The notes below the pieces were generated by a model, which did not search any database, was not told the DNA's origin, and was given only the letters and a program-made list of their open reading frames with translations. Both the position numbers and the translations under genes were made by a program. This document shows, one piece after another, positions 1,142-17,212 of a DNA stretch of 17,506 nucleotides. Numbering within the stretch: the first letter of the stretch is position 1; the number at the start of each line of letters is the position of its first letter. Source of the DNA: Sulfurihydrogenibium yellowstonense SS-5 (lineage in GTDB: Bacteria; Aquificota; Aquificia; Aquificales; Hydrogenothermaceae); the NCBI RefSeq assembly GCF_000173615.1, contig NZ_ABZS01000005.1, forward strand, positions 1-17,506, given 5' to 3'.

Positions 1142-1171
1142 TGTCATTTTGAAGATGGCGATGAATCTTCG
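1142..1171 (+). repeat. Diverged core hairpin unit, + orientation
   Basis: A diverged copy of the short palindromic repeat found throughout this window's intergenic DNA. It begins TGTCATTTTGAAG and ends GATGAATCTTC, matching GTCATTCTGAG...GAAGAATCTC elsewhere. It is the repeat member nearest the hisA 5' end; the hisA promoter should lie between it and 1040, but I could not pick out a convincing -35/-10 pair. Confidence 0.6.
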
Positions 1172-1189
1172 CCTTTATGCCCCTATTTT

Positions 1190-1281
1190 GTCATTCTGAG
1201 CGAAGCGAAGAATCTCGTGTTTTTGTTTTCAAATCAAAAAATCAAAACATGAGATCCTTTAGACTAAAGCCTTAGGGATGG
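1190..1281. repeat. Paired palindromic repeat module A (+ unit, spacer, - unit)
   Basis: The + unit at 1190-1216 has outer stem ATTCT (1193-1197) with AGAAT (1209-1213), tandem GA/GA mismatches at 1198-1199 and 1207-1208, and the mini-hairpin GCGAAGC at 1200-1206. An A/T-rich spacer follows, then a - unit from GAGATCC (1251) to about 1281. The two units and the spacer edges (TCGTGTTTTTG and CAAAACATGA) are inverted copies, so the whole module can fold into one long hairpin. It is homologous over its full length to module B (1452-1547). The layout resembles a BIME, a pair of inverted REP units; that assignment is inference. Confidence 0.8.
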
Positions 1282-1350
1282 CGGAGAAAGTGAAGAGTAT
1301 CGGCAATTCACGAATTACCATTACACATTATCATGTTAGCAGCTCTTTTA

Positions 1351-1384
1351 TTCATAATTCTAAATCCATAGGAAGAATCGCATA
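1351..1384 (+). repeat. Decayed core hairpin unit, + orientation
   Basis: TTCATAATTCTAAATCC followed by ATAGGAAGAATCGCAT fits the core unit with substitutions. The outer stem ATTCT/AGAAT is intact, and an inner TCC/GGA stem encloses ATA. The surrounding DNA (1282-1350 and 1385-1412) shows no gene or other recognisable structure. This is a weaker match than the neighbouring units. Confidence 0.45.
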
Positions 1385-1412
1385 CATAAGAATGTTTGCA
1401 AAAATCCACACA

Positions 1413-1439
1413 GTCATTCTGCAGCCGGTGAAGAATCTT
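1413..1439 (+). repeat. Core hairpin unit, + orientation, single
   Basis: A single + unit starting GTCATTCTGCAGCC and ending GAAGAATCTT. Its interior (CAGCCGGTG) matches the interior found in the + half of the composite element at 11106-11132, so it may be the remnant of a composite element. It lies 12 nt before module B. Confidence 0.75.
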
Positions 1440-1451
1440 GACCTCAAAGAC

Positions 1452-1547
1452 GTCATTCTGAGCGAAGCGAAGAATCTCATGTTTTTTTCTTTTCAAGTCA
1501 AAAAATCAAAAAAAGATCCTGCGGACTAAAGTAGTCGGGATGACACG
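1452..1547. repeat. Paired palindromic repeat module B (+ unit, spacer, - unit)
   Basis: A second copy of the module at 1190-1281. The + unit (1452-1478) is identical to that of module A over its 27 bases. The - unit (1514-1545) has outer stem ATCC/GGAT (1516-1519 with 1538-1541) and an inner stem GACTA/TAGTC (1524-1528 with 1532-1536) around a 3-nt loop. This inner stem differs in sequence from every other copy but stays paired. The spacer again carries CAAGTCAAAAAATC. Confidence 0.8.
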
Positions 1548-1557
1548 GAAATACAAA

Positions 1558-1631
1558 TTTACAAAAATTTTGGAACATCCTTAATCCTCAAGATGACACG
1601 AAAAAGTAAGCTTTACAAGAATTTTGGAATA
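1558..1631. repeat. 20-bp direct repeat pair enclosing a decayed - unit
   Basis: TTTACAAAAATTTTGGAACA at 1558-1577 recurs at 1612-1631 with 18 of 20 positions identical. The 34 bp between them contain a decayed - orientation unit, CTTAATCCTCAAGATGACAC (about 1580-1599). The arrangement looks like a short element inserted with duplication of its target; divergence of the two copies suggests it is old. Chance similarity in A/T-rich DNA is possible but unlikely at this length because of the shared TTTTGGAA. Confidence 0.55.
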
Positions 1632-5276: not shown

Positions 5277-5418
5277 TACCTTGGGGTGAGAAATTAGCAG
5301 TTTTTATAAAATTTAAAAATAAGATCCTTCGGCCTTACGGCCTCAGGATGACAAGAATAATCTAATTTCGTCATTCTGAAGCCGGCTAAGAATCTCATAC
5401 TTTTTTGAATTTCTCATC
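5277..5418. repeat. Composite inverted-repeat element, copy 1 (MITE-like)
   Basis: The ends are GGTGAGAAATT (5285-5295) and AATTTCTCATC (5408-5418), inverted copies with one mismatch. Inside is the left-arm segment TTAGCAGTTTTTATAAAATT, shared with the other three copies. A - core unit follows with stem ATCCT/AGGAT (5324-5328, 5345-5349) and inner GGCC/GGCC around TTAC. After a short spacer comes a + core unit (5370-5396). It fills the rgy-fliG gap and ends 49 nt before the fliG start codon. An 8-bp AAAATATA lies on both sides (5253-5260 and 5441-5448), but this is too short and A/T rich to count as a target duplication. Confidence 0.8.
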
Positions 5419-5467
5419 GAAATACATTTGATAAGTCATAAAAATATAACTTTAATGGAGGCTTAAA

Positions 5468-6490
5468 TTGGCTGAGGAAAAAAGTAAATTAAAAGGATTA
5501 GAAAAAGCAGCCATATTATTGTCTATATTACCAGAAGAAAAGAATGTGAAAATTTTTAAACATCTTAAACAAACAGAACTTGAGAAGATTATCAAAGCAT
5601 TACTCACATTAGAAGAGCCGACAAAAGAAAATATTAAAGCAGTTATTCAAGAAGCATATAAAAATTTATCAGAGGCAGCACCTTTAAAACTTCTTCCGGA
5701 TAATATAAAAAAGATACTAGAAAAAGCGTTGCCTCCGGAAAAAGTTAAAGAACTGTTTGAAGGCTTGGTAATGGCTGAAGAAGGGAAAGCAGTTTTCCAG
5801 GAAATTGAGAAGCTTCCTGCAAAGGTAGTAGCAAACCTAATTAAAAATGAACATCCTCAAGTTATTGCTTTAATATTAACACAGCTAAAACCACAAAAGG
5901 CAGCAGAAATAATCCAATATTTACCAAGAAGGCAGGGCATTTCTAACATCCAAGAAGAAGTTATAAAAAGAATTGCATCCTTAGAAAAAGTTTCATCTAA
6001 CATGATTAAAACCGTTGCTGATTCTTTAGAAGAGGAACTATATACAATAGGAGCTGGAAAAGAAGAAATGTTGAGCGGAATTGATGTTTCAGCAGAAATA
6101 GTAAACAACTTACCAAAAGATTTAGCTCAAGAAATACTTGATGAAATAAGAAAAGAAGCACCTTCTCTTGCAGACAGTATAGAAGAGCGTATGTTCAAAT
6201 TTGAGGATATTATTAAACTTGATAATAGAGCTATTATGGAAATTCTCAAAGCTGTTGATAAAAATGACCTACTTATTGCTCTTAAAGGTGCTCCACAAGA
6301 AATTATTGATAAATTTACTGCTAATATGTCAAAAAGAGCTGCTCAAATGTTTTTGGAAGATATGGAAGTGCTTGGTCCTGTTAAAAAATCTGATGTTGAA
6401 AATGCAAGGAAAAAGATTATACAGGCTATTAAAAATCTCATACAATCTGGCGTTATTGAATATGGAGCAGGTGGTGAAGAAATGTTATAA
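5468..6490 (+). CDS. fliG: Flagellar motor switch protein FliG
   Basis: FliG forms the upper ring of the flagellar C-ring on the cytoplasmic face of the MS ring and meets the stator to generate torque. The 340 residues match the usual 330-345. The middle-domain EHPQ motif that binds FliM is at 128-131 in EHPQVIALIL, the linker-helix/C-terminal motif MFKFEDI is at 242-248, and the charged torque helix region follows (DNRAIMEILKAVDKNDLL; NMSKRAAQMFLEDME). The start is TTG 5468, supported by GGAGG at 5457-5461 and by agreement with family N-termini; no in-frame ATG lies nearby. First gene of the block fliG-fliM-fliN-flgF-flgG; fliF is not beside it as it is in many bacteria. Confidence 0.97.
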   Translation: MAEEKSKLKGLEKAAILLSILPEEKNVKIFKHLKQTELEKIIKALLTLEEPTKENIKAVIQEAYKNLSEAAPLKLLPDNIKKILEKALPPEKVKELFEGLVMAEEGKAVFQEIEKLPAKVVANLIKNEHPQVIALILTQLKPQKAAEIIQYLPRRQGISNIQEEVIKRIASLEKVSSNMIKTVADSLEEELYTIGAGKEEMLSGIDVSAEIVNNLPKDLAQEILDEIRKEAPSLADSIEERMFKFEDIIKLDNRAIMEILKAVDKNDLLIALKGAPQEIIDKFTANMSKRAAQMFLEDMEVLGPVKKSDVENARKKIIQAIKNLIQSGVIEYGAGGEEML

Positions 6491-6518
6491 TTAGGTTAGG
6501 TCAAAAGAGGTGGCAAGG

Positions 6519-7487
6519 ATGTCTGACTTTTTATCTCAGGATGAGATAGATGCATTAATAGGTGGAGGTAAATCTTCTCTAGCTGCAGAAGAAAAAATAA
6601 AAGAAAAGCCATTTGATTTTAGTAGACTTGAGAAGATTCAAAAAGGCGGATTTCAAGGGTTAGAAGTTTTATTTGAAAAGTGGGTGAAAATCTTTAGAGA
6701 AGAAATTAGGGCTGAATTTCCTGTGGTAAACATGGTCTCCAAAGGTAAAATAGCAACAATGAGATTTGGAGACTTTATTGGAAAAATTCCGCTGCCGGCG
6801 TCGTATACAATTTTTAATATGAAGCCTTTGAAAGACCCATCACTTTTGATCATAGACTCTCGCGTTGTTTTTAACTTAGTAAGTGCTTTGTTTGGTGGAG
6901 GAGCAAGACCTTTTAAGATTGAAGGAAGAGAATTTACAAAGCTTGAAATCAGAATAATTGAAAAATTAGTAGACATTGTTTTGGGAAGTTTTGAAAAGAT
7001 ATGGAAAGATATATATCCAATTGAAATTGAAAGAAAGAGTATAGAGTTTAATCCAATTTTGGTAAGAATAGTATCTCATGCAGAAAAAGTTATTGTAGCA
7101 GAAATTATGATAGATATTGAGGGTTTAGAAGTTCCTTTAACATTTACATTCCCACAAATGCTGTTTTTACCCATCAAAGATATTCTTTTTACAGATACAT
7201 TTGGCTCTGAAGTATCACCTGAATGGAGAAAAGAACTTATTAAGAAGTTATTAAAAGTGAACCTTAACCTAACATTAGAATTAGATAAATTTAGTGTCTT
7301 AGTGGAAGAATTTTTAAACTATGAAGTTGGAACAGAAATAATACTAAACAAAAAACAATCTGAAGAATTGGACTTAAAAGTTGAAGATAAGGTTAAATTT
7401 AAAGCAAGCATAGGCAAATTAGACAAAAAATTCGCTGCAATGATAACAAAAATAATCAAGGAGAACGGTAATGGAGGAAATGGATAA
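6519..7487 (+). CDS. fliM: Flagellar motor switch protein FliM
   Basis: FliM is the middle C-ring subunit that receives phospho-CheY and passes the signal to FliG. The N-terminus MSDFLSQDEIDALIGGG is the conserved CheY-P binding segment. The CheC-like middle domain (about 40-220) contains SALFGGGARPFKIEGREFTKLE, and a C-terminal SpoA domain (about 240-318) binds FliN. I start at ATG 6519 because homologues begin directly at this motif and AGAGGTGG lies at 6506-6513; an in-frame GTG at 6510 would add only three residues. The product is 322 residues. It starts 28 nt after fliG, and its last 17 nt overlap fliN. Confidence 0.96.
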   Translation: MSDFLSQDEIDALIGGGKSSLAAEEKIKEKPFDFSRLEKIQKGGFQGLEVLFEKWVKIFREEIRAEFPVVNMVSKGKIATMRFGDFIGKIPLPASYTIFNMKPLKDPSLLIIDSRVVFNLVSALFGGGARPFKIEGREFTKLEIRIIEKLVDIVLGSFEKIWKDIYPIEIERKSIEFNPILVRIVSHAEKVIVAEIMIDIEGLEVPLTFTFPQMLFLPIKDILFTDTFGSEVSPEWRKELIKKLLKVNLNLTLELDKFSVLVEEFLNYEVGTEIILNKKQSEELDLKVEDKVKFKASIGKLDKKFAAMITKIIKENGNGGNG

Positions 7488-7992
7488 ACAAGAGAATAAA
7501 CCTGAAGACAACCAAGAAGATTTAGCAGCTGCTTGGTCTGAAATGTTAAATGAAAGTGAGAAAAAGGGAGGGTCGCAGGAAGATTTGGCAGCTCAGTGGT
7601 CTGAAATGTTGAATAAAGATAAAAATGAATCTGTTGACGCAGATATTCATCAAACGCTGTTAAAAAAATCAGAAAAAAAAGAAAGCTTTACAAAAGAAGA
7701 ATTTAGTCCAGAAATTTTAAATAAACTTGATATTCTTTTAGATATTCCTATTACAATTACAGTAGAAATAGGCTCAAAATCTATGCCTATAGAAGAGATT
7801 TTGAAACTTGCTCCAAGTTCTGTGATAGACTTAGACAGATATTTAAATGAACCTATAGATTTAAAAGTAAATGGTGTTCTTGTTGCAAAAGGGGAGCTTT
7901 ATCAGGTAGATGATAATTTTGCAATAAAGATAACTGAAATTTTGACGAAAGAAGAAAGGGTAAGACTTGTTTCAAGTCAAATAAGAGGTTAA
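7471..7992 (+). CDS. fliN: Flagellar motor switch protein FliN with duplicated N-terminal motif
   Basis: FliN forms the base of the C-ring and docks the export ATPase complex through FliH. The C-terminal SpoA domain covers about residues 84-168 (LDILLDIPITITVEIG ... LAPSSVIDLDR ... EPIDLKVNGVLVAKGE), typical of FliN. The N-terminal extension carries a tandem duplication: QEDLAAAWSEMLN (15-27) and QEDLAAQWSEMLN (36-48), 12 of 13 identical. A similar D-x-W/A-x-x-L segment near the FliN N-terminus of other bacteria is implicated in FliH contact; equating it with this repeat is inference. At 173 residues it is longer than the 137 of E. coli. ATG 7471 has AAGGAG at 7458-7463; a later ATG at 7480 is too close to its GGAGG. 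Confidence 0.94.
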   Translation: MEEMDKQENKPEDNQEDLAAAWSEMLNESEKKGGSQEDLAAQWSEMLNKDKNESVDADIHQTLLKKSEKKESFTKEEFSPEILNKLDILLDIPITITVEIGSKSMPIEEILKLAPSSVIDLDRYLNEPIDLKVNGVLVAKGELYQVDDNFAIKITEILTKEERVRLVSSQIRG

Positions 7993-7996
7993 AAAA

Positions 7997-8707
7997 ATGG
8001 CAATAAATTTTCAACCAATTTATATTCTTGCTTCAGGTGGAGAAAGAGCTACAGAACAGCTTGATACAACTACAAACAATATAGCCAACAGCAATACGCC
8101 CGGCTTTAAAAAACTTCTCCTTAGAGAAATGAGTCAAAAAATACCAGAAAATAAAGGAAAAGTTGGAGATCTACTTGTTTTTCCACGTTTTATGGATAGT
8201 CCGGTTTTAAACTTTCAAGGACCATTAATTAAAACAGAAAATAATTTAGACTTAGCGATTGTAGGAGATGGATTTTTTACAGTTGAAAGCGCTATAGGAA
8301 GATACTACACAAGAAATGGTCATTTTTCAATAAATCAGGAAGGCTATTTGGTAGATGTAAATGGTGCTTATGTTTTAGATGAGAATTTTAGAAGAATTCA
8401 AATTCAGGATAGCAAATTTCAAATAACGCCTAAAGGCGAGATTTATCAAAATGGACAGATTACAGGAAGAATAAGAGTAGTTAATTTGCAAAATTTACAA
8501 GCTGTAGGAAGCTCATACTATCAAGGACAAGAACAGCAAACAACCAACTTTGAAATAAAACAAGGGTACCTTGAAGGAGCAAACCTGAATGTTGTTAAAG
8601 AAATGGTTGAAATGATTAACAATCATAGAAGATTTGATATATACATGAATCTTGCAAAATCTCTTGATATGTTAGAGGGTAAAGTTAACGAGATTGGAAA
8701 AGCATAA
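7997..8707 (+). CDS. flgF: Flagellar basal-body rod protein FlgF
   Basis: FlgF is a proximal rod protein secreted through the flagellar export apparatus into the periplasm. The 236 residues show the rod/hook N-terminal signature TTTNNIANSNTPGFKK (25-40), the central NLDLAIVGDGFF...YYTRNGHF segment common to FlgE/F/G, and a C-terminal rod helix KEMVEMINNHRRFDIYMNL. It lies immediately before the clear flgG. The N-terminus differs from FlgG (MLRALWTSASGM), and it is shorter, which supports FlgF rather than a second FlgG. There is no Sec signal peptide, as expected. The start ATG follows AGAGG at 7984-7988, 4 nt after the fliN stop. Confidence 0.88.
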   Translation: MAINFQPIYILASGGERATEQLDTTTNNIANSNTPGFKKLLLREMSQKIPENKGKVGDLLVFPRFMDSPVLNFQGPLIKTENNLDLAIVGDGFFTVESAIGRYYTRNGHFSINQEGYLVDVNGAYVLDENFRRIQIQDSKFQITPKGEIYQNGQITGRIRVVNLQNLQAVGSSYYQGQEQQTTNFEIKQGYLEGANLNVVKEMVEMINNHRRFDIYMNLAKSLDMLEGKVNEIGKA

Positions 8708-8727
8708 AAAGTTAAGGAGGTACTAAA

Positions 8728-9528
8728 ATGTTAAGAGCATTATGGACATCAGCGTCAGGGATGGAAGCACAACAGACAAATTTAGATGTGATTTCTCACA
8801 ACATAGCTAACGTGAATACAGTTGGATTTAAAAGAAGTAGAGCTAATTTCGAAGATTTGATCTATCAAGATGTGAGAGACCCGGGTGTTTTAAGCTCAAC
8901 TCAGAATAGAGTTCCGGCAGGGATTCAGATAGGTTTAGGCGTGAAAGTGTCTGATGTTGCAAAAATGTTTTCTCAGGGAAGTTTGATGAAAACAGATAAT
9001 CCTTTGGATGTTGCGATACAAGGTGAAGGATTTTTCAAAATAGAAATGCCTGATGGAAGCGAAGCTTTTACAAGGGCTGGAAATTTCCAACTAGATAACG
9101 AAGGATATATAGTAAATCCAGAAGGATATAGATTAAGTCCAAACATACAAATTTCAGCTCCAGAAACAGTTTTAAACATTTCTATAAGTCCAAATGGAAA
9201 AGTTATCGTAGTTAGAAATAGCGGTGGACAACAGACAACGGAAGAAGTTGGAAATATAAAGCTTTACAAATTCATAAACCCGGCGGGACTTAAAGCAATA
9301 GGGGGAAATCTATTTAAGTATACAGAAGCTTCCGGACAACCTATAGAAGGAGACCCAAATACTGATGCTTTTGGAAAGCTTACACAAGGATTTTTAGAAA
9401 TGTCTAACGTAAACATAGTAGAAGAAATGGTAAATCTAATAGTAGCACAAAGAGCTTACGAAGTTAACTCGAAAGGTATTATTACGGCAGACGAAATGCT
9501 TAGGACCGTAAGTACATTGAAAAGTTAA
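8728..9528 (+). CDS. flgG: Flagellar distal rod protein FlgG
   Basis: FlgG forms the distal rod that crosses the P and L rings. At 266 residues it is close to the 260 of E. coli. The N-terminal MLRALWTSASGMEAQQTNLD and SHNIANVNTVGFKRSR, the NPLDVAIQGEGFF core, and the C-terminal NVNIVEEMVNLIVAQRAYE are classical FlgG. A perfect Shine-Dalgarno AAGGAGGT (8714-8721) lies 6 nt before the ATG, the strongest ribosome binding site in the window. Last gene of the fliG block; its stop codon falls inside the left member of a direct-repeat pair (9525-9539). Confidence 0.97.
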   Translation: MLRALWTSASGMEAQQTNLDVISHNIANVNTVGFKRSRANFEDLIYQDVRDPGVLSSTQNRVPAGIQIGLGVKVSDVAKMFSQGSLMKTDNPLDVAIQGEGFFKIEMPDGSEAFTRAGNFQLDNEGYIVNPEGYRLSPNIQISAPETVLNISISPNGKVIVVRNSGGQQTTEEVGNIKLYKFINPAGLKAIGGNLFKYTEASGQPIEGDPNTDAFGKLTQGFLEMSNVNIVEEMVNLIVAQRAYEVNSKGIITADEMLRTVSTLKS

Positions 9529-9742
9529 TAATTTTTAGATTAATGCTTTGGGTAAAAAATTAGCGGTTTTCATAGAATTTAAAAAGGAGATTCTTCGGAC
9601 TTACGTCCTCAGGATAACAGGAAAAGGTTGATTGCAAGCATCATAGAATTCGTCATTCTGCAGGTGGCGAAGAATCTCCTATTTTTATTGAATTTATTAC
9701 CTAATGAATAATTACTTTAATGAGAGATTGATAATTTTTAGA
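9525..9742. repeat. Flanking direct repeats around composite copy 2
   Basis: TTAATAATTTTTAGA (9525-9539) and TTGATAATTTTTAGA (9728-9742) match at 14 of 15 positions and enclose composite copy 2. The left copy overlaps the flgG stop codon. The pair does not abut the element ends (7 nt on the left, 23 nt on the right), so its reading as a target-site duplication is tentative. Confidence 0.45.
9547..9704. repeat. Composite inverted-repeat element, copy 2
   Basis: The ends are TTTGGGTAAAAAATT (9547-9561) and AATTTATTACCTAA (9691-9704). The - core unit has stem ATTCT/AGGAT (9590-9594, 9611-9615) with inner GGAC/GTCC (9597-9600, 9605-9608) around TTAC. The + core unit is at 9651-9679. The spacer is longer (about 30 bp) than in copies 1 and 3. 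It occupies the flgG-flgA gap. Confidence 0.78.
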
Positions 9743-9768
9743 AGATTGAATAAATTAAGGATAAAAAG

Positions 9769-10281
9769 ATGAGTGCAAAACTTTGGAACATAGTTTTATT
9801 GCTTGTTTTACTTACAATTTTTTATGTAAAAGCTGGCGAAAGGCTTGAAAAAGCTAAAAATATGGCTTTAGAGTATGCAAAGGAAAATTATAAAGATGTT
9901 GAGATAATAGACGTAGTTAAAATACCACAGAGTTATGAGGAAAAGTTAAGTAAAGATTTTAATAAAGTTGAATGTAAAAGCAAAGGAAAAAGCAGTATTT
10001 ATCTGTATTTAGATTGTACTTATTTGAAAGATGAAGAAATAGTTGCAACGATCCCTATTACGTTTAGAATATCAGCTACTACAAAATATAAAATTGTAAA
10101 AAATCAAAAAGTCGGCATAGTTTATTTGAATAAAAACATAAAAATACAAATGCTTGGCGTAGCTCTTGAAAACGGTAAAGAAGGGGATTACATTAAAGTT
10201 AAAAATATATCTACAGGTAAAGAATTGGTAGGAAAAGTTATCTCTAATGATACTGTTTTGATAGAAGCAAGCAGGGAGTAA
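9769..10281 (+). CDS. flgA: P-ring assembly chaperone FlgA (short form)
   Basis: FlgA is a periplasmic chaperone that assists FlgI assembly into the P-ring. A Sec signal peptide is visible at residues 1-22 (hydrophobic WNIVLLLVLLTIFYV, likely cleavage after VKA). The C-terminal SAF-type domain (about 105-168) contains the family pattern GKEGDYIKVKNISTGKELVG followed by KVISNDTVLI. At 170 residues it is shorter than the 219 of E. coli, the difference lying in the N-terminal half. Two cysteines (about residues 69 and 84) could form a disulfide. AAGGATA precedes the ATG. It sits 4 nt before flgH, and with FlgI further on this supports the call although overall similarity is low in this family. 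Confidence 0.85.
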   Translation: MSAKLWNIVLLLVLLTIFYVKAGERLEKAKNMALEYAKENYKDVEIIDVVKIPQSYEEKLSKDFNKVECKSKGKSSIYLYLDCTYLKDEEIVATIPITFRISATTKYKIVKNQKVGIVYLNKNIKIQMLGVALENGKEGDYIKVKNISTGKELVGKVISNDTVLIEASRE

Positions 10282-10285
10282 GAAA

Positions 10286-10960
10286 ATGAAAAGGTTATTA
10301 CTGTTATTCGGAGTAATAGGTTTTATCACAGTAGGATGTGCAAAAAAAACGTCAGAGTATGGAAAGCCATTTAACCCAAATCCACCCGAGATAGAGCAGG
10401 AAAAAGTTGTAAGAACACCCGGCTCTTTATACACAGGTACTTACAACAATTTATTTTCCGATTCTAAAGCTTTCACGGTTGGAGATATTATAACAATAAG
10501 AGTTGTTGAAAACATAGCCGGACAGACTGCTTCTAATACAAACACACAAGAGCAACAGAAGATGGATTTAAACGTTCCATCGCCAAAGCTAATGGGTAAA
10601 GATTTAATAAATAAAACTCCAATAGCCGGCATAACAGAGCAAAACTCAGACACCTATAAAGGGTCTGCATCTACAAACAGAAAATCAACTCTAATAGCAA
10701 CAATTTCTGCAAGGGTTACGAAAGTTTATCCAAACGGAAACTTATTTATAGTGGGGAAAAAGGTTGTTAAAGTTAACGATGATTACCAAACACTTGTAAT
10801 TTCAGGCATTGTAAAGCCTACTGATATAATGCAAGATAACTCTGTAGATTCTTCAAGAATTTCGGATATGTATGTAGAGTACAATGGGAGAAGTTATATG
10901 GCAGATAGCTCAAGACCGGGCTGGTTAGCACAATTCTTAAAAAGAATCTGGCCGTTTTAA
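10286..10960 (+). CDS. flgH: Flagellar L-ring lipoprotein FlgH
   Basis: FlgH forms the outer-membrane L-ring, so the organism has a Gram-negative envelope. A lipoprotein signal peptide is visible: MKRLLLLFGVIGFITVGC with the lipobox TVGC and lipidated Cys18. Family segments include SLYTGTYNNLFSDSKAFTVGDI (about 51-72), TIRVVENIAGQTAS, NGNLFIVGKKVVKVN, LVISGIVKPTDI and the terminal GWLAQFLKRIWPF. At 224 residues it matches the usual 220-235. The ATG follows GGGAG overlapping the flgA stop, so translation is likely coupled. Confidence 0.97.
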   Translation: MKRLLLLFGVIGFITVGCAKKTSEYGKPFNPNPPEIEQEKVVRTPGSLYTGTYNNLFSDSKAFTVGDIITIRVVENIAGQTASNTNTQEQQKMDLNVPSPKLMGKDLINKTPIAGITEQNSDTYKGSASTNRKSTLIATISARVTKVYPNGNLFIVGKKVVKVNDDYQTLVISGIVKPTDIMQDNSVDSSRISDMYVEYNGRSYMADSSRPGWLAQFLKRIWPF

Positions 10961-10987
10961 GATAATGCTTATAATTGGCAGTCACAC

Positions 10988-11188
10988 TAAAAATAATATA
11001 AAATAACCTTTATACCTTGGGTGATAAATCAGCGGTTTTTGTAAAATTTAAAAATGAGATCCTTTAGACTTACGGCCTCAGGATGACAAGGAACAATCTA
11101 ATTTCGTCATTCTGCAGCCGGCGAAGAAACTCAAGTTTTTGTTGAATTTCTCAACAGACGTATTAAAAATAATTTAAAATAACTTTAT
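10988..11188. repeat. Flanking direct repeats around composite copy 3
   Basis: 10988-11013 (TAAAAATAATATAAAATAAC then CTTTAT) and 11164-11188 (TAAAAATAATTTAAAATAAC then TTTAT) are identical except for one substitution and one missing base. They flank composite copy 3: the left copy abuts it and the right copy begins about 5 nt after its end. This is the longest and best-preserved of the flanking pairs. All sequence in it is A/T except one or two bases, so some similarity by chance is expected, but not over 25 aligned positions. Confidence 0.6.
11014..11158. repeat. Composite inverted-repeat element, copy 3
   Basis: The ends are ACCTTGGGTGATAAAT (11014-11029) and AATTTCTCAAC (11145-11155). 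The left arm again shows CAGCGGTTTTTGTAAAATTT. The - core unit is at 11056-11088 and the + core unit at 11106-11132, with a short spacer (ACAAGGAACAATCTAATTTC) nearly identical to that of copy 1, which suggests recent common origin. The inner stem of the - unit (AGAC/GGCC) is partly unpaired here. Confidence 0.8.
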
Positions 11189-11215
11189 GAAAATTGAATA
11201 AATGAAAGTTAAAGA

Positions 11216-11272
11216 GTTATCTTTCTAAAGCTGATGAAGAATCTCCTGCTTTTATTTAATTTTTACCTTACA
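11216..11272 (+). repeat. Right-half remnant of a composite element
   Basis: TTATCTTTCTAAAGCTGATG then AAGAATCTCCTGCTTTTATT and TAATTTTTACCTTA match the right half of the composite elements (degenerate + core, then the CTCCTxCTTTTA and AATTT...ACCT end). No left half precedes it. It ends 41 nt before the flgI start, within the region where the flgI promoter and leader must lie. Confidence 0.65.
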
Positions 11273-11312
11273 TAGCTTTTCACAAAAGATGATTATTAGG
11301 AGAATTAAAGGG

Positions 11313-12404
11313 ATGTGGAAAAAGGTCTTAATTGCAATAGTTCTTATAACAAGCCTTTCTTTTGCTACTGAAGTAAAAATCCGAGACGAAGTATACGTTG
11401 AAGGTTTTAGACCAAACTATCTTACCGGATATGGTATAGTCGTTGGTTTGAATGGAACTGGGGATGGGACTACAAGCAGATACACATTAATCAGTATAGC
11501 CAATATGTTAAGAAAGCTTGGAATTTACATAGACCCTACCCAAGTAAGAACAAAAAACGCTGCTGCTGTTATGGTTACTGCTAACCTACCACCATTTGCT
11601 AAGCCAGGGATGGCAATAGATGTCCAAGTAGCATCGATTGGTGATGCAAAAGATATTGCTAATGGTTTATTAATAAGAACGCCTCTTTATGGACCGGATG
11701 GGAAGATCTACGCCTTTGCACAAGGACCTGTATCAACCGGCGGTGGCTTTTTAGAATCAAATAAAGGTGGAAAGGTTCAAAAAGGATTTCCAACCGCAGG
11801 CATTATTCCAAACGGTGCAATCGTTGAAGAAGAGTTGCCATTTGACTTTAATTCTATGACAGAAGTGACCTTAAGTCTTAAAAATCCAAGTTTCTCAAAG
11901 GCTCAAGAAATTGCCAAAGTAATAAATCAAAAATATCCAGGATTAGCAGTTGTTCAAGACCCTACTTCAATAAAAGTTAGACTGCCGCAAACCAAAAATA
12001 AAACAGAATTTTTAGCAGAGATTTTAGACCTAAAAATAAAAACCGATAAAGACAATGTACCAACTATAGTATTTTACGAAAAAACAGGAACTGTAATAAT
12101 GAGTGGAGATGTAGTTATAGACACTCCTGTTTACGTATCGCATGGAAGTATTTATGTTACAGTAGAAAAAACGCCTGTAATCTCACAACCACCACCTTTA
12201 TCCGATGGCCAAACAGTAGTGACCCAAGGGGTAACTACTAAAGTTCAAGAAGAAAAAGGTAGAATTATATCCATAGAATCAGCAAAACTTTCTGATTTAG
12301 TAAAAGCATTGAATGATTTAGGAGTTTCTCCATACGATTTAATAGCAATACTGCAAGCCATAAAAGCCGCAGGTAAATTACACGCAGAAATAAAAGTAAT
12401 GTAA
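11313..12404 (+). CDS. flgI: Flagellar P-ring protein FlgI
   Basis: FlgI builds the periplasmic P-ring around the rod. The product is 363 residues from ATG 11313, matching the 365 of E. coli. A Sec signal peptide MWKKVLIAIVLITSLSFA is followed by TEVKIRDE. Conserved stretches include LTGYGIVVGLNGTGDGT, NAAAVMVTANLPPFAKPGMAIDVQVASIGDA, GPVSTGGG and the C-terminal LSDLVKALNDLGVSPYDLIAILQAIKAAGKLHAEI. I prefer 11313 to the upstream ATG 11289 because AGGAG (11298-11302) lies before it, the signal peptide is then canonical, and no ribosome binding site precedes 11289. First gene of the block flgI-flgJ-flhA-flhF-flhG. Confidence 0.96.
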   Translation: MWKKVLIAIVLITSLSFATEVKIRDEVYVEGFRPNYLTGYGIVVGLNGTGDGTTSRYTLISIANMLRKLGIYIDPTQVRTKNAAAVMVTANLPPFAKPGMAIDVQVASIGDAKDIANGLLIRTPLYGPDGKIYAFAQGPVSTGGGFLESNKGGKVQKGFPTAGIIPNGAIVEEELPFDFNSMTEVTLSLKNPSFSKAQEIAKVINQKYPGLAVVQDPTSIKVRLPQTKNKTEFLAEILDLKIKTDKDNVPTIVFYEKTGTVIMSGDVVIDTPVYVSHGSIYVTVEKTPVISQPPPLSDGQTVVTQGVTTKVQEEKGRIISIESAKLSDLVKALNDLGVSPYDLIAILQAIKAAGKLHAEIKVM

Positions 12405-12417
12405 GGGGGAGATAGAA

Positions 12418-12846
12418 ATGTTTAAAGACCTTCCACCGTTAGAAGATTTGATAAAAGAGCTAAAAGATATAAAAGATGTAGGTATAAAATCTCAAAAGCG
12501 CAACAATAACAGCTTTGATAAATCTCTGCAGACATATTTGAACCAACCAAAACAAGATGTAATAAAGCCTATAAAATCTTACTTTGACTTAAAATCTATA
12601 CAAGAATCAAAAACACCGGAGGAAGTTGCAAATACATTTCAAACAATCTTCTTTGAAATGATGCTTAAAGAGATGAAAAACGGCCTTTTTGAATTTTCAT
12701 CTTCAGATTTTGGAAATAAGATGTATATGGATATGTTTTTTATGCAGCTTGCTCAGGTAATGGCGGATTCTAACCAAATTGGACTTAAGGATTATATACT
12801 TAATGCTATTAACAATTACACTAAAAACTCAAAACCAGAAGGTTAA
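12418..12846 (+). CDS. flgJ: Rod-assembly protein FlgJ, N-terminal domain only
   Basis: Residues about 60-130 form the rod-binding domain: EEVANTFQTIFFEMMLKEMK, a GNKMYMDMFFMQLAQVMA segment and IGLKDYI. This domain of FlgJ acts as a scaffold/cap during rod growth. The 142-residue protein has no muramidase (glucosaminidase) domain, which in enteric FlgJ opens the peptidoglycan for the rod. Single-domain FlgJ is known from several other phyla, which use a separate lytic enzyme; none is encoded in this window. The start ATG follows GGGGGAGA, 13 nt after flgI, and the flhA start lies 2 nt after its stop. Confidence 0.88.
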   Translation: MFKDLPPLEDLIKELKDIKDVGIKSQKRNNNSFDKSLQTYLNQPKQDVIKPIKSYFDLKSIQESKTPEEVANTFQTIFFEMMLKEMKNGLFEFSSSDFGNKMYMDMFFMQLAQVMADSNQIGLKDYILNAINNYTKNSKPEG

Positions 12847-12848
12847 AA

Positions 12849-14930
12849 TTGGATAGAGTTTTACCTATTTTTGACAAAATAAACCAAAATTCAGATGCGA
12901 TAATTATCGTTTTTATACTTATAATTCTTGGTTCTTTAGTTTTACCAGTTCCACCGTTATTGCTTGATATACTTCTTACAATGAGCATTAGCTTTTCCAT
13001 GCTAATTTTAATGGCTACGGTTTATGTTGATAGTCCTTTAAAAATATCTTCTTTTCCTTCTTTACTTTTGCTTGCAACACTATTTAGATTATCTTTAAAC
13101 GTTGCATCAACAAGAAGAATTTTACTGCATGGACACGAAGGACCAGATGCAGCAGGGCACGTTATACAGTCTTTCGGGCAGTTTGTCGTTGGTGGTAGTT
13201 ATGTAGTTGGTATTATAGTGTTTTTAGTGCTTGTAATCATCAACTTTATTGTTATCACAAAAGGTACAGAAAGAATTTCAGAAGTGGCTGCAAGGTTTAC
13301 GCTCGATGCTATGCCGGGTAAACAGATGAGTATAGATGCAGACTTAAATAGCGGTCTTATAGATGAGAAAGAAGCTCAAAGAAGACGTCAAGAAATTCAA
13401 AGAGAAGCAGATTTTTATGGGGCGATGGATGGTGCAACTAAGTTTATTCGTGGCGATGCTATAGCTGCAATAATCATTACCTTTATAAATATGATTGGTG
13501 GAATCATAATTGGAATGGTTCAAAAAGGAATGGATTTCCAATCGGCATTACAAAACTTTACAATTTTAACAATAGGTGATGGATTGGTGTCCCAAATACC
13601 GGCTCTTATCACGTCAACAGCTGCAGGTTTAATGGTTACCCGTGCTGCTTCAGAAACAAACCTTGGTAAAGAAATATTTACACAGCTAACAAGTATTCCA
13701 AAAGCCTTATGGATGGCGTCAGGTGCTGTGTTTACCATGGGAATTGTTCCAGGTATGCCAACTTTACCATTTTTAATACTTTCGGCAATTCTTGGATTTT
13801 CAGGATACATAATGCATCTAACACTTAAAGAGAGAGAAAAAACAGAGAAAGAAGAAAAAGCTAAAGAAGTTATCAAACAGTTAGAAGAAGAGCAACCGGA
13901 GAGCTATATATCTCCACCGGAAGTTTTAACTTTTGAGATAGGATACAGATTAATCAAATTAGTTGATGAATCACAAGGCGGCGAGCTTATTAAAAGAATA
14001 AAAAATTTAAGAAAACAATTAAGTAAAGAGCTTGGACTGATAGTTCCACCTGTACATATAAAAGATAATTTAGAATTAAAGCCAAATGAATATAGAATTT
14101 TAATTAAAGGTGTAGAAGTAGCAAGGTACGAAGTAGACCCGGATAAATATCTTGCATTGGATACAGGTTCTATTAGAGAAAAAGTAGAAGGCGTTCCAAC
14201 AAAAGACCCGGCCTTTGGGTTAAATGCTTTATGGATAGACGAAGCTAACAAAGACAGGGCAAAGCTAAACGGATATACAGTTGTAGATGTACCTACCGTA
14301 ATAGTTACTCATTTATCAGAAATAATCAAAAGATACTCTTACGAAATACTTACAAGAATGCAAGTTAAAGAAATCATTGATAATATTGCAAAAAGTTATC
14401 CTATAATAAAGGATATTATTCCATCACAAGTTCCTTTAAACATACTTCATAAAGTTCTTCAAAATCTTTTAAAAGAAGGAATTCCTATTACAGATATCAT
14501 TACTATTGTAGAGGCATTAGCAGATAATATAAACAAAACACAAGACCCGGATATCTTAACTGAGTACGTTCGCGCAGCATTAAGCAGAATGATTACTTCG
14601 ATGTTTGCCAAAAACGGACAACTTACAGCATTAATACTTGGAAATAAAACTCAAGAGTATTTAATAAATTTACTTAAAGAGAACGATTGGCAGATGCCAC
14701 CATTAAATCCTGTTTTTGTTCAAAAGTTAATAACAGAAATATCCAAACATTTAGAAAACTTTATTATTCAGGGCGCAACCCCTGTATTATTAACATCTCC
14801 AAACGTAAGAAGATATATCAAGCAAATCATCGAAAACTATATACCTAACTTACAAGTTTTGTCTTATTCAGAGATTGATAGTAAAATAAAATTAAATATT
14901 ATTGGAGTTGTGGAAGTAGATGGAACCTAA
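12849..14930 (+). CDS. flhA: Flagellar type III export gate protein FlhA
   Basis: FlhA is the large inner-membrane subunit of the flagellar export gate; its cytoplasmic domain forms the nonameric ring that receives chaperone-substrate complexes. The 693 residues match the family. The N-terminal half (about 1-325) holds multiple hydrophobic segments, for example AIIIVFILIILGSLVLPV, YVVGIIVFLVLVIINFIVI and AAIIITFINMIGGIIIGMV. The FHIPEP signature runs from R149 (RFTLDAMPGKQMSIDADL). The C-terminal half is soluble. The start is TTG 12849; AGAAGG at the end of flgJ is its probable ribosome binding site. The last 11 nt overlap flhF, indicating coupled translation. Confidence 0.97.
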   Translation: MDRVLPIFDKINQNSDAIIIVFILIILGSLVLPVPPLLLDILLTMSISFSMLILMATVYVDSPLKISSFPSLLLLATLFRLSLNVASTRRILLHGHEGPDAAGHVIQSFGQFVVGGSYVVGIIVFLVLVIINFIVITKGTERISEVAARFTLDAMPGKQMSIDADLNSGLIDEKEAQRRRQEIQREADFYGAMDGATKFIRGDAIAAIIITFINMIGGIIIGMVQKGMDFQSALQNFTILTIGDGLVSQIPALITSTAAGLMVTRAASETNLGKEIFTQLTSIPKALWMASGAVFTMGIVPGMPTLPFLILSAILGFSGYIMHLTLKEREKTEKEEKAKEVIKQLEEEQPESYISPPEVLTFEIGYRLIKLVDESQGGELIKRIKNLRKQLSKELGLIVPPVHIKDNLELKPNEYRILIKGVEVARYEVDPDKYLALDTGSIREKVEGVPTKDPAFGLNALWIDEANKDRAKLNGYTVVDVPTVIVTHLSEIIKRYSYEILTRMQVKEIIDNIAKSYPIIKDIIPSQVPLNILHKVLQNLLKEGIPITDIITIVEALADNINKTQDPDILTEYVRAALSRMITSMFAKNGQLTALILGNKTQEYLINLLKENDWQMPPLNPVFVQKLITEISKHLENFIIQGATPVLLTSPNVRRYIKQIIENYIPNLQVLSYSEIDSKIKLNIIGVVEVDGT

Positions 14931-16119
14931 AATAAAAATCTTTGAAGGCTATGATTTAAACAAATTGATGCACCAAATAAAAGAAAATTTAGGCGAGGAG
15001 TTTAAAATTCTATATCAAAGTGAGATAAAAGAAAAAACAAAAATTCCATTTTTAAAGAAAACAAAATATATCCTCATAGTTGAACCAATAGAAAATAAAA
15101 TTTCTTTTGAGGATATCTTATCTGAAAATCTAAAAGAGGAGGATGAAAAAGAAGAAGTACAAGTTTACAACCCATTTAAGGCAGAAATTAGACAGGAAAT
15201 TGTTGAAAAAGCTGAACCTGTTATAAAAACTACAACTCATAATGATTTGAATCAAAAACTAAATATAAAAGAAGAGTATTACGATAATAATATAACATAC
15301 AGAGAAATCACAGAAGAGTTTACAGGAAAAGCTTTAGACTTGATTAATTTACTGATTCAAAAGGATGTCGAGCTGACGGTTGCTAAAGAAATTGTGAGAA
15401 ATGCTTGTGGCTTAGAAATGGGTTCAAATAAGTTAGATTTAAAACACTTTACATATAGAGAATCTCTTATAGAAGGTCTTGAAAAAAGCTTTATTTTTAA
15501 AGGAGATATCTTTAAAGATTCTGACAGAAGGAGAGTTGTAGCTTTTTTGGGACCAACCGGTGTTGGAAAGACAACAAATCTATTTAAAGTAGCTTCAAAG
15601 CTTATTTTAGAAGAGAACAGAAAGGTTGCTGTTGTATCGATAGATACATTTAAAGCAGGAGCAGGAGATCAAGCAAGAAGCTACTGCAACATACTTGGAA
15701 TACCTTTCCAGATCTTATCCGACCCTAAAAAGCTAAGAGAAACTGTGGATGATTTTGATTTTGTAGATGTTTTACTAATAGATACTATAGGAAGAAGCCA
15801 TTATGACCATTGGAAGCTCGGGGAAATAAAGGAAACTTTACGTTTGATTGATGAAATAGAGTACATGATGGTGGTAAGCTGCAACTGGAAAAATAAAGAG
15901 AGTTATAATTTAATTCAAAAATATAGAAAATTCTTTAACATCAATTATCTGTTTTTTACAAAAATTGATGAAACAGCTTATCCTGGTACGATATTAAATT
16001 TAGCATATAAAACTAAACTTCCGTTAACATATATAAGTACAGGTCAGAATGTTCCTGAAGATTTAAAAATTATTACTCCTGAAAGACTTGCTTCGTATCT
16101 GCTTATGGAGAATGAATGA
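14920..16119 (+). CDS. flhF: SRP-type GTPase FlhF, flagellar placement
   Basis: FlhF is a signal-recognition-particle family GTPase that marks the site of flagellar assembly and is needed for export-gate/MS-ring placement. The 399 residues comprise a basic, variable N-terminal B domain (1-130), a helical N domain (about 130-200) and the G domain: G1 GPTGVGKTT (211-219), G2 DTFKAGAGDQ (about 244-253), G3 DTIGR (288-292) and G4 TKID (347-350). G3 is usually DTAGR; isoleucine replaces alanine here. GAGDQ is diagnostic for FlhF against FtsY or Ffh, where GAxEQ/AAxxQL forms occur. The start overlaps the flhA end by 11 nt, and the stop overlaps flhG by 4 nt (ATGA). Confidence 0.95.
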   Translation: MEPKIKIFEGYDLNKLMHQIKENLGEEFKILYQSEIKEKTKIPFLKKTKYILIVEPIENKISFEDILSENLKEEDEKEEVQVYNPFKAEIRQEIVEKAEPVIKTTTHNDLNQKLNIKEEYYDNNITYREITEEFTGKALDLINLLIQKDVELTVAKEIVRNACGLEMGSNKLDLKHFTYRESLIEGLEKSFIFKGDIFKDSDRRRVVAFLGPTGVGKTTNLFKVASKLILEENRKVAVVSIDTFKAGAGDQARSYCNILGIPFQILSDPKKLRETVDDFDFVDVLLIDTIGRSHYDHWKLGEIKETLRLIDEIEYMMVVSCNWKNKESYNLIQKYRKFFNINYLFFTKIDETAYPGTILNLAYKTKLPLTYISTGQNVPEDLKIITPERLASYLLMENE

Positions 16120-16982
16120 TGGAGCAACAGTTAAAACAGTTAAAAGAGCTTGTTAATAAAGCAAATCCTGAAACTATACAAACGAAAAAAAATCCAAAAT
16201 TTTTATGTGTATCAAGCGGTAAAGGTGGAGTAGGAAAAACAAATTTTTCAATAAACTTAGCTTATATATTGGCGAACAATTTTGATAAAAAAGTTCTTCT
16301 GATAGATGCTGATATTGGACTTGGCAACATTCATGTCATATTAAACATTCCACTGATAAAATCTTTAAAAGAATTTTTTGAAGGTAAAGATATAGAAGAG
16401 AGTATACTAAAAGTTAAAAACTTTGATTTAATACCAGGGTTTTCCGGTATAGACAATATAAGCGATATAGAAAACATAGATTTAAATCATTTGATAAAGA
16501 GATTAGACGAAATATCCGGAGAATATGACTACATCATAATAGATACAGCTGCAGGGATTGGTAAAGAAGTAATAAATTTTATCCTTCCTTCAGACAAAAC
16601 ATATATCATAACAACACCTGAGCCTACAGCCCTTACCGATGCTTATAGTCTAATAAAATCTGTCTTTAAAATTTATGGCTATTCTAATTTTAAAATAGTA
16701 ATTAACATGTGTAGAAGTGAAGAAGAAGGGATAGAAACTTTTGAAAGACTTTCAAATTCTTGTAAAAGATTTCTAAATTTAGAATTAAATCTTGCAGGGA
16801 TATTGCCATTTTCTGAAAATCTTAAGAAGAGTGTTATATCAAGAACATTAATTTCTGAAAGTTATAAAACAGACTCCTTTACAAAAAATTTAATTGAAAT
16901 CGCAAAAAAAGAAACAGGAGAAGATATCAAAAGAGAAAATAAAGAAAGCTTCTTTAAAAAACTGTTTTCTTTTATTAAATAA
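16116..16982 (+). CDS. flhG: MinD-like ATPase FlhG (FleN/YlxH), flagellar number control
   Basis: FlhG limits flagellar number and stimulates the FlhF GTPase. The deviant Walker A KGGVGKT has signature Lys36 and Lys41; LLIDADIGLGN is the A-prime motif and IIIDTAAGIG the Walker B/switch II. The N-terminal helix MMEQQLKQLKELV resembles the DQAxxLR helix by which FlhG activates FlhF. The last residues, ESFFKKLFSFIK, form an amphipathic helix like the membrane-targeting sequence of MinD/FlhG. The 288 residues are normal. Two adjacent ATGs (16116, 16119) share GGAG at 16107-16110; either could be used. Adjacency to flhF rules out a cell-division MinD role with good confidence. Confidence 0.95.
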   Translation: MMEQQLKQLKELVNKANPETIQTKKNPKFLCVSSGKGGVGKTNFSINLAYILANNFDKKVLLIDADIGLGNIHVILNIPLIKSLKEFFEGKDIEESILKVKNFDLIPGFSGIDNISDIENIDLNHLIKRLDEISGEYDYIIIDTAAGIGKEVINFILPSDKTYIITTPEPTALTDAYSLIKSVFKIYGYSNFKIVINMCRSEEEGIETFERLSNSCKRFLNLELNLAGILPFSENLKKSVISRTLISESYKTDSFTKNLIEIAKKETGEDIKRENKESFFKKLFSFIK

Positions 16983-17003
16983 TTAAGTGAATAAGCAGGA
17001 AAG

Positions 17004-17176
17004 CCTTAGGGTGAGAAATTAGTGGTTTTTATAAAATTTAAAAATGAGATCCTTCGGGCTAAAGCCCTCAGGATGACAGTCAAAGGGTGAATGATAAACA
17101 TTAAAGGAAGAATAACCTTAGGTGTCATTCTGAGCGTTAGCGAAGAATCTCCTACTTTTACCAATTTCTCACCTGA
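17004..17176. repeat. Composite inverted-repeat element, copy 4 (best preserved)
   Basis: The terminal inverted repeats are TTAGGGTGAGAAATT (17006-17020) and AATTTCTCACCTGA (17163-17176). The - core unit (17046-17078) is a near-perfect hairpin: ATCCT/AGGAT (17049-17053, 17070-17074), TC/TC mismatch, GGGCT/AGCCC (17056-17060, 17063-17067). The + core unit (17124-17152) has ATTCT/AGAAT, GA/GA and the inner GCGTTAGC. The spacer is about 45 bp. It fills the flhG-fliA gap. Confidence 0.85.
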
Positions 17177-17184
17177 CATATAAA
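17157..17184 (+). promoter_or_regulatory. Candidate fliA promoter using the element's right end
   Basis: TTTACC (17157-17162, four of six matches to TTGACA) and TATAAA (17179-17184, five of six to TATAAT) are 16 bp apart, about 30 nt upstream of the fliA GTG. The -35 lies inside composite copy 4 and the -10 just outside it. Matches of this quality are common in A/T-rich DNA, so this is only a candidate. Confidence 0.3.
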
Positions 17185-17212
17185 TAAGTAAATAAGTAAG
17201 AAAGAGGCGGAT

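Follow-up and report, generated by a model that had tools for sequence, protein, structure and literature searches.

Introduction

REPIN and BIME elements consist of oppositely oriented palindrome pairs, which occur in many copies and lie in intergenic regions. Bacterial miniature inverted-repeat transposable elements (MITEs) such as Chunjie and MITEAba12 are short, bounded by inverted repeats, moved in trans and mostly intergenic, Chunjie being found also inside an operon. DDE transposases usually produce a short, nearly fixed target stagger, the length of which depends on how far apart two active sites lie. Insertion sequences (ISs) of the IS982 family, according to PMC7335449, are 845–1282 bp long, encode a transposase of ∼290 aa, begin with 5′-AC in 57 of 69 published members, follow the end consensus AC(N)6T(N)5TT, are flanked by direct repeats of 2–10 bp and lack a conserved lysine or arginine six or seven residues past the catalytic glutamate. 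The IS1549/IS1634 elements, which are IS4-related and 1.5–2 kb long, leave duplications of 8–514 bp that differ in length between copies of one element, and for such long variable duplications no mechanistic model had yet been proposed in 2008, as stated in PMC2266710. Duplications of 16–28 bp are reported for the IS1202 group, the Acinetobacter members of which have TGT...ACA ends (PMC10132070). The present analysis concerns 17,506 nucleotides of Sulfurihydrogenibium yellowstonense SS-5 (positions 1–17,506 of contig NZ_ABZS01000005.1, the whole of which is referred to as the window), in which four gaps in a flagellar region each hold one homologous unit of 146–177 bp with matching ends. The four units are very probably copies of one MITE, the ends of which are those of an IS982-like IS of the Aquificota and which the transposase of that IS has probably moved in trans.

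The MITE resembles Chunjie and MITEAba12 in being short, mostly intergenic, bounded by inverted repeats and probably moved in trans, and Chunjie in addition in its presence inside an operon, but differs by its long target duplications and by a pair of core palindromes in its interior. This pair recalls REPIN and BIME elements, but lies here inside DDE transposon ends and is accompanied by target duplications, and a RAYT (Y1 tyrosine) transposase was not found in the genome of the window. The partner IS, of about 1 kb, is like IS982 in its length, its single DDE transposase gene and its initial AC; the T at position 9 of its end fits the consensus, whereas its TT, at positions 16–17, is one place off. 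It departs from IS982 by 18 perfect duplications of 23–38 bp and by a lysine (K250) seven residues after the catalytic glutamate (E243). With IS1549/IS1634 it shares long duplications of variable length, but it is shorter, IS982-like and much narrower in its range of lengths; with the IS1202 group it shares long duplications as well, but differs in transposase family, in its smaller size and in its ends. The partner is a new IS982-like variant.

The four units and their copies in the genome

The assembly to which the window belongs (G000) measures 1.53 Mb in 228 contigs and is 82.7% complete. It was compared with six congeneric genomes (G001–G006) and with further genomes, up to 61 in total, G000 included. 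Unit limits were counted from AC to GT, the element proper being AC...GT. The four copies and the target duplications recognised beside copies 3 and 4 are the following.

5278–5423, + strand: MITE copy 1, 146 bp, with a short spacer, upstream of fliG; G002 has it too, as does G005, there likewise upstream of fliG
9545–9706, + strand: MITE copy 2, between flgG and flgA, with diverged ends; the gap is filled in G002 and G005
10986–11013, + strand: 28-bp target duplication on the left of copy 3, agreeing with the right one at 22 positions, score 10; overlaps repeat family D17
11014–11161, + strand: MITE copy 3, between flgH and flgI
11162–11189, + strand: right target duplication of copy 3, partner of 10986–11013
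16979–17002, + strand: 24-bp target duplication on the left of copy 4, with 20 identical positions, score 12
17003–17179, + strand: MITE copy 4, between the MinD-like gene and fliA
17180–17203, + strand: right target duplication of copy 4, partner of 16979–17002

An earlier note on this DNA had described one homologous unit in each of the four gaps, and the units indeed align over their full length, with 84 of 177 columns invariant and a mean column identity of 77%. The order of parts given there was likewise recovered in all four, i.e., end, A/T-rich arm, minus core hairpin, spacer, plus core hairpin and end, and the refined limits lie near the earlier ones. The MITE terminates in a 17-bp inverted repeat, the consensus left end ACCTTGGGTGAGAAATT and right end ACGTCGGGTGAGAAATT being identical at 15 of 17 positions. 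No open reading frame (ORF) of at least 60 aa is contained in any of the four units.

The element is not restricted to the flagellar gaps, dozens of copies lying elsewhere in the genome. A BLAST search of G000 with unit 4 gave 40 matches of 124–175 bp with 78–100% identity and 24 short ones, a count that rests on 40 scored of 272 first-look candidates. The 20-base left end, with at most three mismatches, matched G000 at 60 places and its reversed-pattern control at none, which is far beyond chance. An end-matching script, run over 64 segments around the matches (181 kb) together with ten loci in G005 and G002, returned 54 unit entries, six of which repeat a unit read on the other strand; the 48 unique two-ended units (42 in G000, six in G005) are 140–196 bp long. 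This script missed window copy 2 and skipped some copies found by BLAST, and it may have mispaired a few units with poor ends. The end pattern is present in 20 of the 61 genomes; counts are high in G002 (115), G005 (65), G043 (23), G047 (14) and G051 (13), besides the 60 of G000, and lower in the other congeners (G006, 10; G004, 8; G001 and G003, one each). A search of plasmids gave no DNA match, and literature titles on MITEs, transposases, insertion sequences and repeats of Sulfurihydrogenibium or Aquificales do not report the element, which is weak evidence of absence.

Evidence of insertion

Direct repeats with a score of at least 12 flank 20 of the 48 units, as compared with 0 of 2,256 mispaired flanks taken from different units. 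Empty sites in the flagellar region could be compared at gaps 2–4; at gap 1, G004 and G006 have no match to the upstream gene and G001 and G003 have none to fliG. All three gaps are filled in G002 and G005. In G003, G004 and G006, gaps 2 and 4 are closed, with genes that overlap or touch, and at gap 3 merely 5–15 bp separate the genes, as measured from gene starts extrapolated from protein matches. From this distribution, the flagellar insertions probably took place after the common lineage of G000, G002 and G005 had parted from the other congeners, and before these three diverged. Some other insertions appear to be younger than these. Two of these other insertions were compared with the close relatives G002 and G005: at L006 the target is single in G005, G002 being filled, and at L030 it is single in both.

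Many copies, flanking repeats and orthologous sites without the element bear out the suggestion of the earlier note that the units form a mobile, non-autonomous family. The note had named two observations that would argue against mobility, an occurrence in the four gaps only and a lack of empty sites; both were looked for and neither was found.

The partner insertion sequence and its transposase

A DDE transposase with matching ends, one of the two types that the earlier note had advised looking for, was found in relatives (G004, G006 and G043), whereas G000 has deleted remnants only (C170 and C222, with the same ends and pieces of the transposase). The full-length ISs of these Aquificota are 963–966 bp long, have AC...GT ends and encode one DDE transposase of ∼280 aa. 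There are four copies of 964 bp in G004 and three of 963 bp in G006, both with AC...GT ends; in G043 a copy of 965–966 bp occupies 21 of 22 fetched places, the intact ones having AC...GT ends. The copy in G005 (839 bp) does not include the stretch with the second catalytic aspartate.

The transposase comprises 282–283 aa from the listed starts, in open frames of 288–297 aa, and matches the IS982 profile NF033520 at E 9e-13, with scores of 48.4 (L111), 27.9 (L115) and 34.8 bits (L128), all below the curated cut-off of 130. In 40 aligned proteins E243, which is catalytic by motif assignment, and K250 are each at least 90% conserved. Relatives of an N-terminal transposase piece occur in 14 of the 61 genomes, including G000. 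Among 420 candidates of a protein search 71 were relatives, the closest being 99% identical and from Sulfurihydrogenibium azorense; those named by their source are all "hypothetical protein", bar one entry of 485 aa. In named genomes, 34 of 36 transposase loci bear names of Aquificota (Thermocrinis, Hydrogenobacter, Hydrogenobaculum, Persephonella, Aquificaceae and others), and the remaining two are from a gammaproteobacterial metagenome-assembled genome and Candidatus Calescibacterium. A sequence search of solved structures returned four matches, to nucleoside diphosphate kinases (E 0.6–0.9), taken as due to chance.

Long and variable duplications of the partner

Duplications with a score of at least 12 were found for 21 of 33 IS-type pairs and for 1 of 1,056 mispairs. 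In this lone scoring mispair the left flank of L164 and the right flank of L116 share a perfect 27-bp repeat, neither copy having one of its own; in addition, L163 shares a 28-bp repeat, inverted, with L123. These shared repeats suggest rearrangement by exchange between IS copies in G043. The 18 perfect duplications measure 23, 23, 23, 24, 24, 24, 25, 26, 27, 27, 27, 28, 28, 28, 32, 33, 34 and 38 bp, and G043 alone spans 23–38 bp. Of its 21 copies, 20 (L115 itself counted) are 95–100% identical to L115, the exception L165 falling outside because a 1-bp length change spoils the ungapped count. As near-identical copies of one IS thus have duplications of 23–38 bp, their stagger is long and of variable length.

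At the left joint of 21 copies the adjacent base is T in 19 and the preceding base A in 19; at the right joint A stands first in 16 copies and G in four, and the second base is T in 20. These bases are most simply explained if both ends are joined at AT dinucleotides and the spacing of the two joints is flexible. Targeting of promoters was also considered, a −10-like hexamer (at most one mismatch) being present in 20 of 21 IS duplications, but it is not supported, since shuffles average 17.7 and 60 of 500 reach 20.

Interior palindromes

Every unit contains two copies of the core palindrome in opposite orientation. Matches to the core pattern number 135 in G000, 156 in G002 and 175 in G005, and there are none in the 15 other genomes searched, among them the congeners G001, G003, G004 and G006. 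The exact core 26-mer was also found on 25 stretches of viral contigs (L226–L250; 38–64% G+C), sometimes beside an inverted copy; 24 of these are without a match to the MITE end, and L228 has one, with at most one mismatch. The 26-mer is a widely distributed palindrome, the viral contigs being unrelated, and the papers listed in a literature search for the core sequence are unrelated by title.

One MITE of G043 (L094, 1343–1519; 177 bp) has ends of this kind and a duplication of 31 bp, in which 27 positions are identical, but its palindromic interior is different. Since like ends enclose another palindromic interior, these two cases suggest that palindromes are captured between the transposon ends.

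At window positions 1150–1620 the cores occur twice in reversed order, a plus core being followed by an A/T-rich spacer and a minus core, apparently without MITE ends, and form a second composite of the same core. The ORFs 1278–1529 (+) and 1308–1496 (−) consist mostly of repeat sequence (ILSEAKNL and similar) and are probably not genes.

Transposase genes of the IS110 family lie inside the plus core hairpin of the MITE at three places in G000, L023 (364–1811; C119), L022 (C221) and L018 (C211), although C119 and C221 may be one locus. All three have the same left junction, at which the insert follows GTCAT; the right junction was seen in one. This position suggests that the IS110 element targets the core palindrome. 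C119 had been a candidate for a long autonomous MITE copy, which was rejected: the gene between its MITE ends is the IS110-family gene inside the plus core hairpin, so that C119 represents an insertion into the MITE.

Alternative explanations

It is unlikely that the units are structured intergenic regulatory elements, whose RNA hairpins act on the flagellar operon and are kept for function at conserved sites. Unit 4, the one unit folded, does have a strong RNA fold (−54.2 kcal/mol, z = −4.8 relative to 200 shuffles), and one pair at the tip of the left hairpin varies in both of its bases with pairing kept, being Watson-Crick in 27 of the 30 units, out of 48, in which the fixed motif is readable (A-T 15, C-G 10, G-C 2, other 3). 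A function would also agree with the retention of the copies of gaps 2–4 across G000, G002 and G005, and with the 40 of 42 G000 units that are clear of ORFs of at least 90 aa (overlap of at most 60 bp). However, the corresponding gaps of G003, G004 and G006 are without units, dozens of other genomic places are occupied, the Rfam search of the window gave no match at E ≤ 1, and target duplications together with empty sites denote insertion. A secondary regulatory role may have been gained afterwards.

Movement of a REPIN/BIME-like palindrome pair by a RAYT, for which the earlier note had advised a search, would explain the two opposed cores of each unit as well as the cores outside units (window 1150–1620, and the total number of core matches in G000), but is very improbable. 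No Y1_Tnp match was obtained at E ≤ 10 in G000 (∼83% complete), while 10 of 14 control genomes were positive. Moreover, single-strand Y1 transposition is not known to leave long duplications or terminal inverted repeats such as the 17-bp repeats shared with the DDE element. That the MITE belongs to the IS1202 group is scarcely credible in spite of the similarly long duplications reported for that group: three partner transposases match IS982 profiles and two also IS5 profiles, with no ISNCY match (NCBIfam, E ≤ 1), the TGT...ACA ends of the Acinetobacter members contrast with AC...GT here, and weak NF033594 matches in G000 (12 matches), when followed, led to an IS481-like element, of which the loci L031–L037 are without a MITE end and L038 has one. 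This IS481-like element, which is unrelated to the MITE, is multi-copy in G000 and encodes a transposase of ∼380 aa; five other copies are 96–99.6% identical to L031 over 476–1205 bp.

Several observations weigh against a MITE moved in trans by an IS982-like transposase. At a score of at least 12, 28 of the 48 MITE units and 12 of the 33 IS-type pairs are without duplication. Among these 12 pairs, L116, L164 and L163 have their repeat beside another copy and L161 is a wrong pairing, leaving eight without explanation. In the window itself, a clear duplication is missing at copies 1 and 2, and that of copy 3 is under the threshold. At L006, filled in G002 and empty in G005, a precise loss in G005 is possible. 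The capture of palindromes is argued from composition only. Finally, no intact partner transposase was found in G000, so that mobilisation in trans is inferred only from the shared ends; the assembly being incomplete, the gene may be missing from it. Nevertheless, the MITE interpretation is supported by the evidence as a whole, and the element was probably moved by the transposase of the related genomes.

Neighbouring genes and remnants of further copies

The genes flanking the gaps match reverse gyrase, FliG, FliM, FlgG, FlgA, FlgH, FlgI, FlhF, a MinD-like ATPase and FliA; several scores are below the NCBI curated cut-offs, and some of these names are at family level. Remnants of further copies were recognised in two gaps, by eye and from a comparison with G005.

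9714–9750, + strand: decayed left arm of a further copy, in gap 2; better kept in G005
11217–11273, + strand: decayed right half (core and end) of a further copy, in gap 3; with counterparts in G002 and G005

In gap 3 of G005 (L133) a further short palindromic repeat, GGGGCGATTCATGAATCGCCC, lies between two MITE right halves; it is not present in G000 or G002.

Proposed mechanism and significance

In the proposed mechanism, the IS982-like transposase would recognise the inverted repeat ACCTTGGGTGAGAAATT and move the MITE in trans, each end being joined at an AT dinucleotide, one to either strand of the target. Repair would then leave a duplication of 23–38 bp, the length of which varies between insertions. 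The oppositely oriented core pair would have been captured between two transposon ends. As a tentative generalisation, which is possible rather than probable, the IS982-like lineage of the Aquificota may join its ends independently, each at AT and at a flexible distance of two to four helical turns, and may repeatedly capture palindromes, thereby spreading families of hairpins.

If this is true, independent end joining would provide a handle on the origin of long variable duplications. A size of ∼1 kb, clear ends, numerous recent copies and a confidently modelled fold make this a simple system in which the question raised by the duplications of IS1549/IS1634 becomes testable. The intergenic hairpins of this clade, which are open to misreading as regulatory elements or small genes, arrived by insertion.

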